Shown: one piece after another, positions 9,444-20,302 of the stretch
How the letters are laid out: each line of letters opens with the position of its first letter
Position numbering within the stretch: the first letter of the stretch is position 1
NCBI RefSeq assembly: GCF_041361345.1
Contig: NZ_JBGKAD010000001.1
Coordinates: 372,001-436,000 of the forward strand
From: Halobaculum sp. MBLA0147
GTDB taxonomy: Archaea > Halobacteriota > Halobacteria > Halobacteriales > Haloferacaceae
Direction of reading: 5' to 3'
DNA length: 64,000 nt
Translations under genes and position numbers: made by a program
Notes under the pieces: model-generated
What the model saw: the letters and a program-made list of their open reading frames with translations, nothing else
The model's database searches: none
What the model was told of the DNA's origin: nothing

Positions 9444-9590
9444 ACCGACCTTTTTCACTCCTCGGGGTGGCCGCCTGCGGCGGCCACCCGAGGAAAAAAG
9501 CTCGATCAAAAAGGGCCGCGAGCGCGCCGTGCGGCGCGCTCGCGGTGGCTTACGGTGCCGTGACCGCAACCGCGACCGCCCCGCACCGCT
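9444..9590 (+). repeat. Two-hairpin intergenic repeat, copy A
   Basis: A block of about 145 bp that recurs in direct orientation at 15159. It starts with ACCGACCTTTTTCACTC. Hairpin 1 (9460-9493) has 15-bp arms around a TGC loop. An A-run and CTCGATCAAAAAG follow, then hairpin 2 (9518-9543), a perfect 11-bp stem with loop GTGC. It begins 3 nt after the purNH stop, between convergent genes, so it could serve as a bidirectional terminator. No ORF in it is credible. Confidence 0.8.
9450..9456 (+). terminator. Putative intrinsic (T-run) terminator of purNH
   Basis: A run of five T (9451-9455), flanked by C, lies 9 nt after the stop codon in a GC-rich background. Short T-runs are sufficient for termination in many archaea. 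The run is part of the two-hairpin repeat. Confidence 0.4.
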
Positions 9591-9856
9591 ACCGCACCGC
9601 GACCGCCCCGCACCGCACCGTACCGCCACCGCCCCGCACCGTACCGCCACCGCCCCGCACCGCACCGCCCTGCACCGCACCGCAACCGCGACCGCCCCGT
9701 CCCGCAACCGCTCTCCTCCGCGACCACCCCGCTCCGTACCGTCCCGCGACCGCGCGCCCCGCTCACACCACCGCCACGACCCCCACACCGCTCGCCACCG
9801 GAGTCCCGCACCGCAGAGGTTCGATACGCGGAGAGAACGACCCCCGGTACCGATGG
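9560..9856. repeat. Degenerate CCGCACCG/ACCGC low-complexity tract
   Basis: Follows hairpin repeat A and fills the gap up to the leftward zinc-protein gene. The plus strand is dominated by irregular repeats of CCGCACCG, CCGCGACCG and CCGCCCCG. One strand is C-rich and nearly G-poor up to about 9700, then it grades into less ordered sequence. Open frames here translate to Arg/Pro/His-rich strings and are not genes. A similar tract follows copy B at 15280. Confidence 0.65.
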
Positions 9857-13064: not shown

Positions 13065-13886
13065 CTACTCGATCGAGAGCCCGGCGTGCCAGCGGTCCGC
13101 GCCGGCTTCGGCCTTCACTTCGTCCATCTTCGCGAGCAGCTTCACCGCCAGACTGGCCGTCTCGGCGGCGCGGTTCTCCCCCTCCACCTGGAACTCGCCG
13201 GTCTCGCGGTTCGCGTACACCGTACAGACGGCGCCGGCACGCAGCCCGAAGATGCTCGCGAGCGTGACGATGGCGGACGCCTCCATCTCGATGTTGCGCA
13301 CCTTCGCCTCCTGCAGCTCCTCGACGAGCGTGTCCATCTCCGGCGCCTCGTAGCCGTCGAACCCCGGCCGCCCCTGTCCGGCGTAGAAGCTGTCGGCGGA
13401 CATCGTCACGCCGGTGTGGTAGTCGTAGCCGAGTCGCTCGGCGGCGGCGACCAGCGCCGTCACGACCTCGTAGTCCGCCGCGGCAGGGTAGTCTTCGCGG
13501 ACGTACGCGTGGCTCGTCCCCTCCTGGCGCACCGCGCCGGTGGTGATCACCAGATCGCCGACCTCCATGTCCGGCTGGATCGCGCCACACGAGCCGACAC
13601 GGAGGAAGGTGTCGACGCCGACGCGGGCCAACTCCTCTACGGCGATGGCCGCCGAGGGCGCGCCGATCCCCGTCGAGGTGACGGAGATCTCCGTCCCCTC
13701 GTAGGTACCGGTGAGCGTGCGGTACTCGCGGTGCCGGGCCCGTTCCTCCGCGTCGTCCCAGAACGCCGTGATCGTCTCGACACGGTCCGGATCTCCCGGC
13801 AGGAGGACCGTGTCGGCGACGTCCTCGGGCGACACTTCGAGGTGGTACTGCTCGTCGTCGTTCGGGTCCTCGCTGTCGTCGACCAT
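13065..13886 (-). CDS. Uridine/purine nucleoside phosphorylase family protein
   Basis: A 273-residue enzyme of the PNP/UDP phosphorylase family (hexameric NP-I fold). Diagnostic segments are VLLPGDPDRVETI (phosphate-loop region), RVGSCGAIQPDMEVGDLVI and VRNIEMEASAIVTL, where the Glu-Met-Glu contacts the ribose. It phosphorolyses a nucleoside to base and ribose-1-phosphate. The overall pattern fits archaeal uridine phosphorylase best, but base specificity is not certain. The start at 13886 (MVDDSEDPNDD) was preferred over one 27 nt upstream, because the extra residues are non-acidic. Monocistronic. Confidence 0.87.
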   Translation of the reverse strand: MVDDSEDPNDDEQYHLEVSPEDVADTVLLPGDPDRVETITAFWDDAEERARHREYRTLTGTYEGTEISVTSTGIGAPSAAIAVEELARVGVDTFLRVGSCGAIQPDMEVGDLVITTGAVRQEGTSHAYVREDYPAAADYEVVTALVAAAERLGYDYHTGVTMSADSFYAGQGRPGFDGYEAPEMDTLVEELQEAKVRNIEMEASAIVTLASIFGLRAGAVCTVYANRETGEFQVEGENRAAETASLAVKLLAKMDEVKAEAGADRWHAGLSIE

Positions 13887-13988
13887 ACCCCTCCGGTTCC
13901 ACCCGACGGGCAAGGGGATTTCGGTCGGCTCGCTGTGCGGGACTGGACCGGCCGGCCGACGTGTGGTCCGACTCCGCGTCGGACCGTC

Positions 13989-15113
13989 TCACCGCCGTAC
14001 GTCGTCGTACACGTCCGCCAACACGTCGACCGCGTGTTCGGCGCTCGCGGTGTCGCGCTCGCCGAGACAGTTCTCGCGCAGCCGGTCGCGCTCGGCGAGC
14101 GCCCGGTCGACGGCGTCCGCGAACGCTGCCGTGTCGCCCCGCGGGAAGTGGAGGCCGTCATCCCCGTCGTCGACCGTCTCGGCCAACGCGCCGGCGTCGA
14201 CGCCCACCACCGGTGTCCCACACGCCGTCGCCTCCAGCGCGACGAGTCCCTGCGTCTCCACGGGCGACGGGAACAGGAACGCGTCCAACACGGAGTAGAA
14301 CGTCGGCAGTGCCTCGCGGTCCAGGAACCCGAGGAAGCGCGCGTCTACGTCGTGCTCCTCACAGGCGGCCCGCACGGCCTCGCGTGCCGGCCCCTCGCCG
14401 CCGAACACCACCGTCGCGTCCGTCTCGGCCGCGGCGACTGCCGGCGGGATCTCGGTCAGGTCCTTCTCGTAGCCGTGGCGACCGGTGTACCCGACCAGCG
14501 GGCCGTCCGGCAGGTCGTGTCGGTCGCGGAACGCCGCCCGCGCCGCCTCGTCGGCGGGTGCGAAGAACGACGCGTCGACGCCGTTCGGCACGATCCGCAC
14601 GGGTGTCTCGACGCCGATCTCTCGGAGGTGGTCGCGAGCGGGCTCGGAGGGGGCGACCACCACGTCCGCGCGGTTCATGAACCACCGTTCGTAGGTGCGG
14701 GCGCTCCCCTCGACGACGGTCGCCAGCGGCCCCTTCGCGAGGTAGTCGGCGTACTCCGCCGTCGGCGTGTGGTACGACGCCACCAGCGGCACGTCGCGCC
14801 GTCGCGCGAGGTACAGCGCCGACAGCCCCAGCCCGAACGGCGTGTGTGCGTGGACCACCTCCGGGTCGGAGCGCCGGACGGCGTCGGGCACGCCGGGGAG
14901 CCCGAACCGGAACCCCTCGTAGAACGGGAAGCCGAAGCTCGTCGTCGGGTGTTCGCCCGCCGTCGGGTCGGGGTCGTACGTCGGCGCCTCCGGGAACACC
15001 ACGTCCATCCGCCCACCGCGGTCGCGCCACCGCTCGCGCCACGTCTGGACGGTGTACGTGACCCCGTTCACCGTCGGCAGGTACGTGTCGGTGAAGGCCG
15101 CGACGGTCTGCAT
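13989..15113 (-). CDS. GT4-family glycosyltransferase
   Basis: A 374-residue GT-B fold protein. The N-terminal half carries TDTYLPTVNGVTYTVQTW and VHAHTPFGLG, and the C-terminal half carries the nucleotide-sugar site with VFGGEGPARE and the EX7E signature in SPVETQGLVALEATACGTP. The N-terminal motif resembles alpha-mannosyl/glucosyl transferases that act on lipid or diacylglycerol acceptors in archaea and bacteria. The acceptor cannot be assigned here. There is no signal peptide and no membrane segment, so it is probably a cytosolic or peripheral enzyme. Its start faces the copy B hairpin repeat. Confidence 0.88.
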   Translation of the reverse strand: MQTVAAFTDTYLPTVNGVTYTVQTWRERWRDRGGRMDVVFPEAPTYDPDPTAGEHPTTSFGFPFYEGFRFGLPGVPDAVRRSDPEVVHAHTPFGLGLSALYLARRRDVPLVASYHTPTAEYADYLAKGPLATVVEGSARTYERWFMNRADVVVAPSEPARDHLREIGVETPVRIVPNGVDASFFAPADEAARAAFRDRHDLPDGPLVGYTGRHGYEKDLTEIPPAVAAAETDATVVFGGEGPAREAVRAACEEHDVDARFLGFLDREALPTFYSVLDAFLFPSPVETQGLVALEATACGTPVVGVDAGALAETVDDGDDGLHFPRGDTAAFADAVDRALAERDRLRENCLGERDTASAEHAVDVLADVYDDVRR

Positions 15114-15137
15114 CTGCCCCACGGTTCCGCACCTCGG

Positions 15138-15158: not shown

Positions 15159-15300
15159 ACCGACCTTTTTCACTCCTCGGGGTGGCCGCCGCAGGCGGCC
15201 ACCCGAGGGAAAAACTCGATCAAAAGGGGCCGCGAGCGCGCCGTGCGGCGCGCTCGCGGTGGCTTGCGGTGCCGTGACCGCAACCGCGACCGCCCCGCAC
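15159..15300 (+). repeat. Two-hairpin intergenic repeat, copy B
   Basis: Nearly identical to the element at 9444, in the same orientation: ACCGACCTTTTTCACTC, hairpin 1 with loop GCA, an A-run, CTCGATCAAAAG and the same 11-bp hairpin 2 with loop GTGC. It then runs on with GCCGTGACCGCAACCGCGAC. It lies between divergent genes, unlike copy A, so a pure terminator role is unlikely. The hairpin 1 loop is the reverse complement of the loop in copy A (GCA versus TGC). Confidence 0.8.
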
Positions 15301-15600
15301 CGCCCCGCGACCGCCACCGCAACCGCCCCGCACTGCAACCGCCACCGCGCTGCTCCGTCCTCACGACCGCCTCGCCACCGCAACCGCCACCGCGCTGCTC
15401 CGTCCCCACGACCGCTACCGCCACCGCAACCGCCCCGCACCGCAACCACACCACCCCGCCACCACTCTCCGTCTCACCACCCAGCGCTACTCCACACCAC
15501 CACCACCACACTACTCCGCCACTGCGACCGCTCCGCGACCCCCGATCTCGTCACGACCTGCCCACGACCCGACCCCACAGGAGTTAACGTCGCGCCCGCA
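15280..15600. repeat. Degenerate ACCGCAACCGCC low-complexity tract in a gene-free gap
   Basis: Fills the rest of the 500-bp gap between the divergent glycosyltransferase and CinA-fusion genes. The plus strand has irregular ACCGCNACCGC and CACCACCACC repeats. It includes two near-identical stretches around CCGCGCTGCTCCGTCC that recur about 50 bp apart (near 15346 and 15393). From about 15550 the composition returns to normal, and GGAGTTAACG near 15581-15590 may be the promoter of the following gene. No credible gene is seen. Confidence 0.6.
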
Positions 15601-15614
15601 GTAACTCGGGCGAG

Positions 15615-16892
15615 ATGCAGGTAGCCATCGTGACGGTCGGGGACGAACTCCTCGCTGGGGACACCGTGAACACGAACGCCTCCTGGCTCGCGGGAGAGTT
15701 GACCGACCGCGGCGTCGCAGTCGAGCGGATCACCACGGTCCCGGACCGCGAACCCGTCGTCGCCGAGGTCGTCAACCGCCACCGCGCCGCCCACGACGCC
15801 GTCCTCGTCACCGGCGGCGTCGGGCCGACCCACGACGACGTGACGATGGCCGCCGTCGCCGCCGCCGTCGGCCGCGAACTGGAACCCAACGCCGAGGCTC
15901 GCGAGTGGCTCACTACCTACGGCGGCTACGCGGCCGACGAGTTGGACGCGGGGACCACCGCCCTCCCAGCCGACGCCCGCGTCCTCCACAACGAGGTCGG
16001 CGTCGCACCCGGCTGTGTCGTCGAAGACGTGTACGTGTTCCCCGGCGTCCCGGACGAGATGCAGGCGATGTTCGACGGCGTCGCCGAGGAGTTCGCCGGC
16101 ACCGTCGACCACGTCGCCGTCGTCGAGACACCCGAACCGGAGTCGGAACTGCTCGACCGCCTCGCGACCGTCCGCGAGGAGTTCGACGTGACCGTCGGCT
16201 CGTACCCCGGCGAGTACGTCCGCGTGAAGTTCTCCGGCCCCGACACCGAGACTGTCGAGGCCGCCGCCGAGTGGCTCCGCGAGCGTGTCGAGTCACTTGA
16301 GGCGGCGGAGTCCACACCCACTCCGACGGCGCGTGACGGCGGATTCAACTACGCGCGCACCCACCGTGGAGTCGTGACCGACGTACCCGAGACGCCGACG
16401 GACGACCCGACGGACCACTACCCCGACTTGGACCACGAGCGCTACGTCGAGCGGACGCTGGAACTCGCCCGCGAGGCCGCCAAGCGCGGCGACAATCCCT
16501 ACGGCTCGCTGCTCGTCGACCCCGAGGCCGAGGACGGCCCCACCGTCGTCGCCGAGGCGCGCAACACCGTCGTCACCGACGAGGACCTCCGTGGCCACCC
16601 GGAGCTGACACTCGCGGCCCGCGCCCGCAGCGACCTGCCGGCGGCGGTCCGCGAGCGGACGATCATGTACACGAGCACGGAGCCGTGTCCGATGTGTGCC
16701 GGCGGGATCGCACACAGCGGCCTCGCGGCCGTCGTCCACAGCGTCTCCCAGGAACACGCCGCCCAGTTCGCCGGTCGGGACGACGTGCTCCCCTCGCGCG
16801 TCGTCTACGACCGGACCGGGGCGGACACCGTCTCGCTCGGCCCCGTCACGCCCGAGGCTGGCATTGCCGTCCACCACGACCACTCCGAGTGA
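15615..16892 (+). CDS. Fusion of a CinA N-terminal (molybdopterin-binding fold) domain with a nucleoside deaminase domain
   Basis: A 425-residue open frame with two recognisable domains. Residues 1-230 match the CinA/MoaB-like COG1058 domain: VTVGDELLAGDTVNTNASWLA, TGGVGPTHDDVTMAAVA and VYVFPGVPDEM. Residues about 270-425 are a CDA-fold deaminase: DNPYGSLLVD, the zinc His and catalytic Glu in GHPELTLAARA (H328, E330) and STEPCPMCAGG (C358, C361). HPE instead of HAE occurs in some deaminases and keeps both key residues. A GTG at 16374 could start the deaminase alone. The combined function is unknown. CinA-type proteins act on pyridine nucleotides, and deaminases of this branch act on bases or nucleosides. 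A sequencing frameshift that joins two genes cannot be excluded from the text alone. Confidence 0.8.
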   Translation: MQVAIVTVGDELLAGDTVNTNASWLAGELTDRGVAVERITTVPDREPVVAEVVNRHRAAHDAVLVTGGVGPTHDDVTMAAVAAAVGRELEPNAEAREWLTTYGGYAADELDAGTTALPADARVLHNEVGVAPGCVVEDVYVFPGVPDEMQAMFDGVAEEFAGTVDHVAVVETPEPESELLDRLATVREEFDVTVGSYPGEYVRVKFSGPDTETVEAAAEWLRERVESLEAAESTPTPTARDGGFNYARTHRGVVTDVPETPTDDPTDHYPDLDHERYVERTLELAREAAKRGDNPYGSLLVDPEAEDGPTVVAEARNTVVTDEDLRGHPELTLAARARSDLPAAVRERTIMYTSTEPCPMCAGGIAHSGLAAVVHSVSQEHAAQFAGRDDVLPSRVVYDRTGADTVSLGPVTPEAGIAVHHDHSE

Positions 16893-16955: not shown

Positions 16956-18530
16956 TCAGTCGTCGCCGACGGTCGGCTCGCCGGGGTCCCCGGGCTCGGC
17001 GTCGCCGGACTCCGACTCGTCTGCCTCCGTCGCGTCGTCGCCGAGGGCCGGGCCGGGCTCGTCGCGCACGTCCGCGTCGCGCCAGGTGCCGCGCTGGTAC
17101 CAACCCCACGCGATGATCGCACCGAGCGTGTTCGACACCGCGAACGCGATCCAGATCCCGATGGTTCCGAGCGACTCGATCCCCAACACCGCCGGCGGGC
17201 GGACCGCGAAGTACGCCAGCGGGAGGCGGATCACACCCAACATCGAGATCGAGATTGCCGCCGCGGTGAGCGTCTTCCCCGCACCGCGGAGACTCCCGTT
17301 GTAGGATCGCATCACGCCGATGAAGCCGAACGTCGGCGCGACCCACCGTAGGAACTCCTCCGTGACGCGGATCACCTCGGGGTCGTTCGTGAACACCGCC
17401 GCGATGGGTGCGGCGGCGACCCACGTCACCACGCCGACGCCGAGCAGGATCGCGAACATCACCCGACTGGCGAGTTTGGCCGCGGCGGCCGCGCGGTCGG
17501 GTTTCTCCGCGCCGATGTTCTGGCCCGTCATCGTCTCGACGCCCCGCGCGACCGCGATGGCGGGGAGGAAGACGACGGAGAACACCCGGACGGCGATCCC
17601 GAAGCCGGCGACCACCGTCGTCGGGAAGAAGCCGACGACGACCAACATCAGGTTCACCGACAGCGCGCGACCGGTGCCCTCCACGGAGGCCGGGATCCCG
17701 ATCCGCACGAGCTTGCGAGCGTACCCGAAGTCCGGCACCATCTCCCGGAGGTGGATCTGGACCCCACGACTCCCGCGCAGCATGATCGCGATCCCGACGA
17801 CGAACGCCAACCCGCGGGAGAACACCGTCGCGTACGCCGCCCCCGCGACACCGTTCCCCGTGTAGCCGGTCAGCGAGAACAGTGTCGCCTCTAGTCCACC
17901 GAGCCCGAGCATCCCGAACAGCGGGTTCGACTCGAACCCGAAGATGAGGAACGGGTCCGCGACGATGTTGAACACGACCGTCCCGAACATCACCAGCATC
18001 GGCGTGATCGTGTCCCCGTAGCCGCGCATCAGCGAGATGAACACGAAGAAGCCGAACATCACCGGCAGTCCGGCGGAGATCACCCGCATGTAGTCGCCGA
18101 CGAGCGGCGCGACGGCCGGCTGTGCGCCGAGGATCCCCGCGAACGACTCCACGCCGAGGAACCCGACCGCGCCGAACAGCGACGCGACGAGGATCGCGAA
18201 CGTCACCGTCTGCGAGGCGGCGTACTCCGCCTTCCCGGGCTCCTCTGCGCCGGTGTGTTGGGCGACGAGGATCGACCCCGCGACGGAGACGCCCATCCCG
18301 AAGGCGATCAACAGGAACACCATCGGGAAGGCGAACGAGATCGCCGCCAACGCCTCCGTGCTGTACTGGCCGAGCCAGAACGTGTCCGCGAGGTTGTACG
18401 CCGTCTGGAGGAGGTTGGTGACGACGATCGGCAGGGAGAGGTAGAACAGCGGCTTGCCGATCTCGCCGCTCGTCAGGTCGAACTCGTCGCGACCCTTGAA
18501 CAACCCGCTCACCCGCTCGCGGAGGCTCAC
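16956..18530 (-). CDS. MATE-family multidrug/Na+ (or H+) antiporter
   Basis: A 524-residue, 12-helix membrane protein with the two MatE halves. The first begins LSLPIVVTNLLQTAYNLADT and the second includes IGIPASVEGTGRAL and TMTGQNIGAE. The C-terminal 60 residues are a polar acidic tail. MATE proteins export cationic organic compounds using ion gradients. Its start overlaps the stop of the TetR gene by 4 nt (18527-18530), so exporter and regulator form one transcriptional unit, probably controlled from the palindrome at 19452. Confidence 0.9.
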   Translation of the reverse strand: MSLRERVSGLFKGRDEFDLTSGEIGKPLFYLSLPIVVTNLLQTAYNLADTFWLGQYSTEALAAISFAFPMVFLLIAFGMGVSVAGSILVAQHTGAEEPGKAEYAASQTVTFAILVASLFGAVGFLGVESFAGILGAQPAVAPLVGDYMRVISAGLPVMFGFFVFISLMRGYGDTITPMLVMFGTVVFNIVADPFLIFGFESNPLFGMLGLGGLEATLFSLTGYTGNGVAGAAYATVFSRGLAFVVGIAIMLRGSRGVQIHLREMVPDFGYARKLVRIGIPASVEGTGRALSVNLMLVVVGFFPTTVVAGFGIAVRVFSVVFLPAIAVARGVETMTGQNIGAEKPDRAAAAAKLASRVMFAILLGVGVVTWVAAAPIAAVFTNDPEVIRVTEEFLRWVAPTFGFIGVMRSYNGSLRGAGKTLTAAAISISMLGVIRLPLAYFAVRPPAVLGIESLGTIGIWIAFAVSNTLGAIIAWGWYQRGTWRDADVRDEPGPALGDDATEADESESGDAEPGDPGEPTVGDD

Positions 18531-19378
18531 TCCGCCACCTCCTCGTTCGGAGACGACTCGTCACGCGAAGCCTGCTCGTCGGCGGGGGCCTGCTCGTCAC
18601 GCGGGGGCTGCCCGTCCGTCCCGTCCGACTCCGTGACCGCGGCGACGCTCGGTGGGTCGAGTCGCGCCGCCGTCTCGTCGGTCACCAGCTCGCGGAGGTA
18701 CGTCTCCAGGTGTCGCCGCATCGCCCCCACGTCGTTGCCCGCCGCGGCCGAGCGCGTCCAGGTCCCGTGGAGGTAGGTGGTGACGAACGACGCGACCGAC
18801 TCGGGGTCCGTCTCCGGCGGGAACTCACCGGCCTCGATTCCGTCGGTGACGAGCCGCTCGACCTGCTCGGTGGCACGCGCGTCGATCCGCGCGAGCCCGT
18901 CCCGGAGCCCCTCGCGGTACGGTGCCTGTGCCTTCATCTCCAAGAACGCCGTCGTGAACTGCGTCGGTTCGGCGTCGCCGTCTCCGCCGCCCGCCCGCTC
19001 GTCCGCGTCGCCGGGTCCCCCGTCTCCGCTCTCGTCGGCCGTCGACAACACCGTCCGGATCAGAGCGAGTAGCCGCTCGGCCGGCGAGTCGCCGGGCGGG
19101 TCGGCGGTGCGCTCCACGAAGTCCGCGTGGAGGTACGAGAGGAACTGTCGGAACAGGTCGTCGCGTCCCTCGTAGTGGTAGTGGAGCGCCGCCTTGCTGT
19201 TGTCCGTCCGGTCGGCGATGTCCTGCATCGTCACGTCGGCGAAGCCGTGTTCACACACGGCGCAGTACGTCGCCTCCATGATCGCCCGTTGCGTGTCGTC
19301 GAACGCCGCGCCGGGCGAGTCGTCTCCCGCTCGATCCGTCGCTCCGTCGTCCGTCGTAGTCGTGTCCGTGTCTGTCAT
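18527..19378 (-). CDS. TetR/AcrR-family transcriptional regulator
   Basis: A 283-residue protein. The N-terminal helix-turn-helix (about residues 30-75) reads IMEATYCAVCEHGFADVTMQ then DIADRTDNSKAALHYHYEGRDD, a textbook TetR DNA-binding domain. The ligand domain follows. It is longer than usual because of an acidic Gly/Asp insertion (about residues 110-135) and a disordered tail with QAPADEQASRDESS repeats. It is coupled to the downstream MATE exporter and lies 73 nt from an 18-bp palindrome. This fits an autoregulated, ligand-induced efflux operon. The inducer is unknown. Confidence 0.9.
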   Translation of the reverse strand: MTDTDTTTTDDGATDRAGDDSPGAAFDDTQRAIMEATYCAVCEHGFADVTMQDIADRTDNSKAALHYHYEGRDDLFRQFLSYLHADFVERTADPPGDSPAERLLALIRTVLSTADESGDGGPGDADERAGGGDGDAEPTQFTTAFLEMKAQAPYREGLRDGLARIDARATEQVERLVTDGIEAGEFPPETDPESVASFVTTYLHGTWTRSAAAGNDVGAMRRHLETYLRELVTDETAARLDPPSVAAVTESDGTDGQPPRDEQAPADEQASRDESSPNEEVAE

Positions 19379-19672: not shown

Positions 19673-20302
19673 TCAGTCGACGAGCTGCCAGAGGTAGAGG
19701 CTCGCGTACGACCGGTACGGGGCCCACCGCTCGGCGCGGTCGCGGATCGTCGCCCGCTCGGTGTCCGCGTCGAGGTCGTCGAACACCGCACGCGCACCCT
19801 TCCTGATCCCGAGGTCGCCGACCGGGAACACGTCCGGGCGGCCGTACGAGAACAGCAGTTGCATGTTCGCCGTCCACTCGCCGACGCCCGTGATGGCCGT
19901 CAAGCGCTCGCGGATCGTCTCGTTCGACGCCTCGTCGAGCGCGTCGAGGTCGCAGTCCGGGTCCGCGAACGCGGCGGCGATCTCGTGGACGTACCGCGCC
20001 TTCTGTCGCGACAGTCCGGCATCGCGCAACACCTCGCGGTCGGTCGCACGGACGGCCGCCGGCTCCGGCTCGACGGCCGCGAACAGCCGCTCGCGGGTGG
20101 CCGCCGCGGACGCCGTCGACACCTGCTGGCGGCAGATCGACACCAGCAGTCGCTCGAACGGGTCGTCGGCCGGATCGAGCGCCAGCGGACCGTGCTGCTC
20201 GACGACGTTGCCCAGTACCTCGTCGTCCCGCAGCGTCGCCGCCGCCTCGCGTGCCGTCGCGGCGTCGGCCGCGTCCGGCGGGGAGACTTGTTCCGCCGGC
20301 AC
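19673..20302 (-). CDS. AlkA-like DNA-3-methyladenine glycosylase (HhH-GPD)
   Basis: A 209-residue base-excision repair glycosylase. The helix-hairpin-helix is LTAITGVGEWTANMQ, and the catalytic Asp follows in FPVGDLGIRKG, both in the order typical for AlkA/MpgII-type enzymes. The N-terminal AlkA beta-domain is absent, as in compact archaeal homologues, and no Fe-S cluster Cys motif follows, which argues against an Endo III/MutY assignment. It would remove alkylated purines from DNA. It ends 3 nt downstream of the KaiC-like gene stop region and is probably cotranscribed with it. Confidence 0.87.
   Translation of the reverse strand: MPAEQVSPPDAADAATAREAAATLRDDEVLGNVVEQHGPLALDPADDPFERLLVSICRQQVSTASAAATRERLFAAVEPEPAAVRATDREVLRDAGLSRQKARYVHEIAAAFADPDCDLDALDEASNETIRERLTAITGVGEWTANMQLLFSYGRPDVFPVGDLGIRKGARAVFDDLDADTERATIRDRAERWAPYRSYASLYLWQLVD

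Follow-up and report, generated by a model that had tools for sequence, protein, structure and literature searches.

A COG1058/CinA-type domain and a predicted nucleobase deaminase in a single reading frame at a rearrangement breakpoint in Halobaculum sp. MBLA0147

The COG1058 domain, the N-terminal domain of CinA, is known from several arrangements. As a stand-alone archaeal protein, represented by 3kbq, it is an ADP-ribose pyrophosphatase whose hydrolysis of ADP-ribose depends on Co2+ and K+; in bifunctional CinA (4ct8) it is followed by the NMN deamidase PncC, and in FLAD1 (8ron) a COG1058-like domain is joined to FAD synthase. A 2013 survey gives Glu11, Asp44 and Asp75 as the catalytic residues, also names glycines 67 and 68, and defines the motifs GXEX3G and GG[L/I]GPX3D (PMC3680494). 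In the main text of that survey, archaeal members appear as single domains only, the functionally linked enzymes PncC and FAD synthase are the partners found elsewhere, and the word ‘deaminase’ does not occur (PMC3680494). Among the titles listed from open-licence PubMed Central papers, none concerned a COG1058/CinA–deaminase fusion. On the deaminase side, the closest described systems are Msd (Msmeg3575) of Mycobacterium smegmatis, a stand-alone bacterial protein, and the Bacillus subtilis guanine deaminase GuaD. Msd is an enzyme that deaminates mutagenic bases.

We analyzed a 64,000-nucleotide stretch of the Halobaculum sp. MBLA0147 genome (hereafter the window) in comparison with three congeners (G001, G002 and G003). 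A first-pass annotation had reported that a COG1058 domain continues in one frame into a zinc deaminase, with residues H328-P-E330 and C358/C361 in place, and each of these statements was borne out by Pfam matches in both halves and by inspection of the residues (Table 1). MoCF_biosynth (PF00994) matched residues 4–157 (E 1.5e-33, 115.9 bits against a cut-off of 26.6), FLAD1_M residues 169–226, and MafB19-deam (PF14437) / dCMP_cyt_deam_1 (PF00383) about residues 273–381. In the COG1058 half, E11, D44, G67, G68 and D75 were all intact, in the same numbering as in the Thermoplasma protein, and the half belongs to the COG1058/CinA N-terminal family with V replacing L/I in the second motif (GGVGPTHDD). 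The deaminase half (residues 254–425) was a complete cytidine-deaminase-fold domain, in which HPE (328–330) and PCPMC (357–361, with C358 and C361) form the H-x-E plus P-C-x-x-C zinc site of that class of deaminases, and it retained all columns that are invariant among 20 aligned deaminase orthologues, zinc site included. Both active sites of the fusion are thus intact by this residue check. Each domain is recognized far beyond chance, while the open linker between them is what chance would give.

Table 1. Features of the fused gene, its junction and its flanks (window coordinates; side A, flank shared with G003; side B, flank shared with G001)
Feature	Position	Strand	Remarks
Fused ORF, 425 aa + stop	15615..16892	+	ATG to TGA, single open frame
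COG1058 / CinA N-terminal domain (MoCF_biosynth + FLAD1_M), residues 1–228	15615..16298	+	Pfam, catalytic residues
Linker, 25 codons	16299..16373	+	Lower GC3, low-confidence model
Deaminase gene (172 aa + stop), beginning with GTG like its stand-alone orthologues	16374..16892	+	
Out-of-frame TGA where G001 and G002 end cinA	16298..16300	+	
Second out-of-frame TGA, in the same off-frame as 16298	16334..16336	+	
AT-rich patch ATTCAACTA	16343..16351	+	−31 to −23 of GTG 16374; possible leaderless core promoter inside the linker
Glycosyltransferase family 4	13989..15131	−	Side A; diverges from cinA in G003, too
MATE efflux protein	16956..18530	−	Convergent neighbour of deaminase also in G001 (side B)
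TetR regulator	18527..19378	−	Follows MATE on side B; likewise in G001
HhH-GPD DNA glycosylase	19673..20302	−	Follows TetR on side B; likewise in G001

The nearest solved chains of the COG1058 half were FAD synthase 8ron, Thermoplasma Ta0487 (3kbq) and CinA 4ct8. With 3kbq the window protein shares the full domain, the motifs and the catalytic residues, but it bears a C-terminal deaminase in addition, and Co2+- and K+-dependent ADP-ribose hydrolysis is for it a predicted activity. With bifunctional CinA it has the N-terminal domain, the two-domain layout and a C-terminal hydrolase partner in common, whereas that partner is here a zinc deaminase of another fold; assignment to bifunctional CinA (COG1058–PncC) was rejected, since Pfam gave no PncC match and the NCBIfam CinA models scored far below cut-off. 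FLAD1 (8ron) was the best PDB sequence match of the N-terminal half and has FLAD1_M in common with it, but its FAD synthase domain is absent from the window protein. A deaminase is an unusual partner for COG1058, as the first-pass annotation had pointed out, and the fusion point does lie near the deaminase's own GTG start.

The same annotation had called the C-terminal half a nucleoside deaminase, of which the zinc deaminase part stands and the nucleoside part fits less well. The best solved relatives by sequence were the Msd chains 8wlw and 5xko, followed by the guanine deaminase 1wkq. A model of this half (pLDDT 92.2, pTM 0.89) returned Msd/Msmeg3575 chains of M. smegmatis as all ten best structure matches (32–35% identity, TM 0.70–0.74; 5xkq belongs to the same protein), ranking above plant guanosine deaminase and NE0047, and several of the matched entries are titled as complexes with ammeline, 5-azacytosine or 5-azauracil. 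HPE is common to Msd and the window protein; Msd, however, stands alone in a bacterium, while the window deaminase is half of an archaeal fusion whose substrate is a prediction. GuaD (1wkq, 1tiy) came next to Msd by sequence, its listed structural match covering part of the domain only (119 columns). Since the nearest solved deaminase by both sequence and structure is the mycobacterial Msd, ‘base deaminase’ is the better label, and the half is predicted to be an Msd/GuaD-type nucleobase deaminase. The tRNA adenosine-34 deaminase TadA was ruled out by score (NF008113, 40.6 bits; cut-off 150).

The fusion was unique to this genome among 60 relatives and among the matches listed for 392 genomes of the order. 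Some match was found in 58 of the 60 relatives and both halves in 34 (counted by eye from the table), at separate places in all 34. In the genus, represented by four genomes, all three congeners carry the cinA half at 73–78% identity, and G001 and G003 have the deaminase as a separate gene; it had no match in G002, a genome that is 74% complete. Across the family the deaminase was found at 1e-20 in 80 of 119 genomes. The order search gave a match at 1e-75 in 345 of 392 genomes, and among the matches listed the source genome alone spanned both halves; the phylum search (E <= 1e-95) likewise had the source genome alone across both, but is a weak test, because only 3 of 392 genomes gave any match at so strict a threshold and diverged fusions would be missed. 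Matches running past residue 260 (for example in G091, 1–339) were rejected as fusions because they contain in-frame stops. Homologues that are always split at this point had been named beforehand as evidence against the annotated fusion, and split they were in every examined genome showing both halves. Recurrence in a second lineage, the mark of a conserved domain fusion (‘Rosetta stone’ pair), was not found among the genomes searched. By our own count, both genes lay on one contig in 14 of the 60 relatives and within 10 kb of each other only in G009 (L137, C13:155820-160969), where about 4 kb separates the deaminase from cinA and the genes between, named by eye, are a TFE-like factor and a DUF2110-like protein.

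Gene order places the junction of the two halves at a rearrangement breakpoint, by synteny with G003 on side A and with G001 on side B. Upstream, the glycosyltransferase shares 85% identity with its counterpart on the upstream side of G003 cinA. Downstream, the MATE (83% identity), TetR (65%) and glycosylase (63%) genes also lie beside the deaminase in G001, so that the deaminase's neighbours belong to another locus, and cinA of G001 is 0.8 Mb away from this deaminase–MATE–TetR–glycosylase locus. In G001 and G003 (by ORF listing) and in G002 (by DNA match), a shared stretch with a small ORF and surE comes after cinA. The source genome has surE (81% identical to that of G001) and the small ORF at C1:2988100, adjoining menC-/menA-like genes (by eye), about 0.4 Mb from the fusion in a circular contig but not in a linear one; what used to lie downstream of cinA is therefore gone from the fusion locus. 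On its other side surE is flanked by a P-type ATPase gene (by eye), which in G001 is also found a few kb from surE. The gene orders of G001 and G003 differ from each other on the other flanks.

At the join itself, cinA of the congeners ends with ...RVETV* (G001), ...RVDTV* (G002) or ...RVTTVDDDE* (G003), and the window reads ...RVESLEAAESTPTPTARDGGFNYARTHRGV followed by VTDVPETP. The TGAs beginning at 16298 and 16334 fall in one off-frame, so that the lost cinA stop could be due to a single-base event, be it genuine or an artefact. Between CGTGTCGA and TGAG there are 7 bases in G002 and 6 in the window. A 1-nt deletion at the place that aligns with the stop of the congeners would explain the loss neatly but was demoted to one possibility, because cinA tails vary in length and an alignment of the cinA end to a stop is thus not compelling; from motif to stop the tail was 161 to 177 residues in 22 of 108 loci, the other 86 having been dropped for want of an exact GGVGPTHDD in a plus-strand frame. 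Codons with G or C at the third position made up 21 of 29 in 16287–16373, compared with 205 of 224 in the cinA part and 160 of 172 in the deaminase. An open linker is not remarkable: no in-frame stop occurred in 64% of shuffled linkers and in 79% of random window 75-mers, and as at least 25 codons were already open upstream of the start in 20 of 29 stand-alone deaminase orthologues, the fused frame was cheap to obtain. The linker had a low confidence (pLDDT about 21–25) in a model of the whole fusion, which was built from an 8-row alignment, was poor overall (pLDDT 58.5, pTM 0.38) and was used for linker confidence alone.

The first reading of the sequence had also considered the GTG at 16374 a usable start, and rightly so: it is in frame and matches, in the alignment, the start codon of the separate deaminase genes of G001 and G003, both of which read GTGAC. 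The core promoter of a leaderless transcript is expected at about −34 to −26, and A+T content upstream of the 29 deaminase orthologues peaked at −34 to −26. About 1% of shuffled linkers had an equally strong AT patch starting at −34 to −26, a figure to be read with the reservation that the 9-base AT measure was chosen after seeing the sequence and that the promoter match is weak, judged as it is only by where the patch lies and how rich in A+T it is. In Haloferax volcanii, leaderless transcripts are reported to make up 72% of the protein-coding ones, and 118 leaderless transcripts, with lower coverage, to start with GUG (PMC4983044). The AT patch, taken together with such GUG transcripts, makes a free deaminase from the internal start plausible.

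We regard an incidental, lineage-specific gene fusion at the rearrangement, with both enzymes still working independently, as the probable origin of this frame. Through the rearrangement, the deaminase gene, together with a short upstream region and its own GTG, would have come to adjoin the 3′ end of cinA, whose stop would have disappeared either in the break itself or through a 1-nt change; the GC-rich spacer was by chance free of in-frame stops. The cinA promoter would then drive a 425-aa protein made of a COG1058 pyrophosphatase for ADP-ribose and related dinucleotides, a disordered linker and a nucleobase deaminase, and the internal promoter and GTG may yield a free 172-aa deaminase alongside it. 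The two active sites would be independent, and the fusion tolerated instead of selected for coupling. If translated as read, the gene would represent a rare birth of a two-domain protein for which congeners still show both parental loci, the breakpoint and the retained start codon, and would add a third kind of COG1058 partner to PncC and FAD synthase in a group whose archaeal members the survey reports as single-domain (PMC3680494).

The main rival is a sequencing error at the join: two adjacent but separate genes could have been merged by a 1-nt sequencing or assembly error near 16290–16334, which we consider unlikely, though it deserves to be taken seriously. A one-base shift would put TGA 16298 or 16334 in frame and end cinA like its homologues, the spacing of 6 bases in the window against 7 in G002 is in line with such a shift, and the residues encoded before 16334 look like a normal cinA tail, for example that of Halobaculum saliterrae (...SESTPTTED). 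Against this, the join contains no long homopolymer but only runs of 2–3 bases, it lies in a 3.0-Mb contig of a 6-contig assembly in which 9 examined matches were without an internal stop, and the variable length of cinA tails weakens any alignment to a stop. If an indel error did create the frame, the locus is a caution against inferring function from one fused gene call. Among readings that accept the frame, the first-pass annotation had proposed a coupled enzyme for nucleotide salvage or clean-up, and a selected bifunctional enzyme, in which the pyrophosphatase and then the deaminase act on damaged or spent nucleotides, would have in its favour the two intact active sites, purifying selection on both halves, the joining of COG1058 elsewhere to the functionally linked PncC and FAD synthase (PMC3680494) and the short distance of about 4 kb between the two genes in G009. 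It seems quite improbable to us, however, as the fusion did not occur a second time in the genomes searched, the linker is modelled as disordered, and the likely substrates are unconnected (COG1058 releases nucleotides, whereas the nearest solved deaminases use, by their entry titles, free bases or guanosine). Split homologues, a junction at a breakpoint and faster evolution of the deaminase leave that proposal without support beyond the fusion itself, and the fusion says little about nucleotide salvage.

The rates of evolution bear on the readings that accept the frame. Omega was estimated from a three-species comparison of the source genome (G000), G003 and G001. For the cinA half it was 0.231 in the source lineage versus 0.209 and 0.203 in the congeners; for the deaminase half it was 0.562 (bootstrap 95% 0.273–1.684) versus 0.195 and 0.175, exceeding both congeners in 97.3% of 1000 bootstraps, a rise that owes part to a low synonymous estimate (0.233). 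Both halves are under purifying selection (omega < 1); the cinA half evolves as in the congeners, and the deaminase half evolves faster in the source lineage, with no sign of tightened selection after fusion. Such a rate (0.56 here, 0.18–0.20 in the congeners) speaks against a selected bifunctional enzyme. It could instead be expected of a deaminase half turning into a non-functional appendage of CinA, given a bootstrap interval that reaches from 0.27 to 1.68 and several changes close to a helix that is conserved elsewhere (LAARARSDL, for LAERAGREL in G003), but with the invariant columns and the zinc site kept, the frame intact to the C-terminus and a domain pLDDT of 92, such decay is very hard to credit. 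The second COG1058 paralogue (about 50% identical) that is present in all three congeners had no match in the source genome, which leaves the fused gene as the sole COG1058 orthologue there; the source genome has one further PF00383 protein (C1:700826). Purifying selection, together with the lack of another close orthologue of either half, means that the fused gene must serve both roles, and this makes some adaptation to being fused conceivable. In a newborn bifunctional enzyme, the sole COG1058 and the sole Msd-like deaminase found in the organism would share one polypeptide, the internal start would also yield free deaminase, and the faster change of the deaminase would be adaptation to tethering, for example to shared regulation or to the cleaning of bases after dinucleotide breakdown; we hold this for a doubtful, speculative alternative to the incidental fusion.

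Other PF00994 matches in the source genome, judged by eye, were a pair of neighbouring MoeA-like loci and a single MoaB-like frame. The MoaB-like protein (L136 8755-9981, minus strand; C1 near 2408793) has a long His- and Asp-rich N-terminal stretch, which may bind metal. On the cinA side of the fused gene, two genes upstream, the window carries a nucleoside phosphorylase (PNP_UDP_1, 161.8 bits) at 13068–13913 on the minus strand. An imperfect tandem array of the CCGCAACCGCC type occupies 15277–15463, between the glycosyltransferase gene and cinA, and a 305-column stretch including the array (15159–15458) is repeated at 9444–9736 with 83% identity. G002 has a stretch related to it upstream of cinA (L124 2013-2166).
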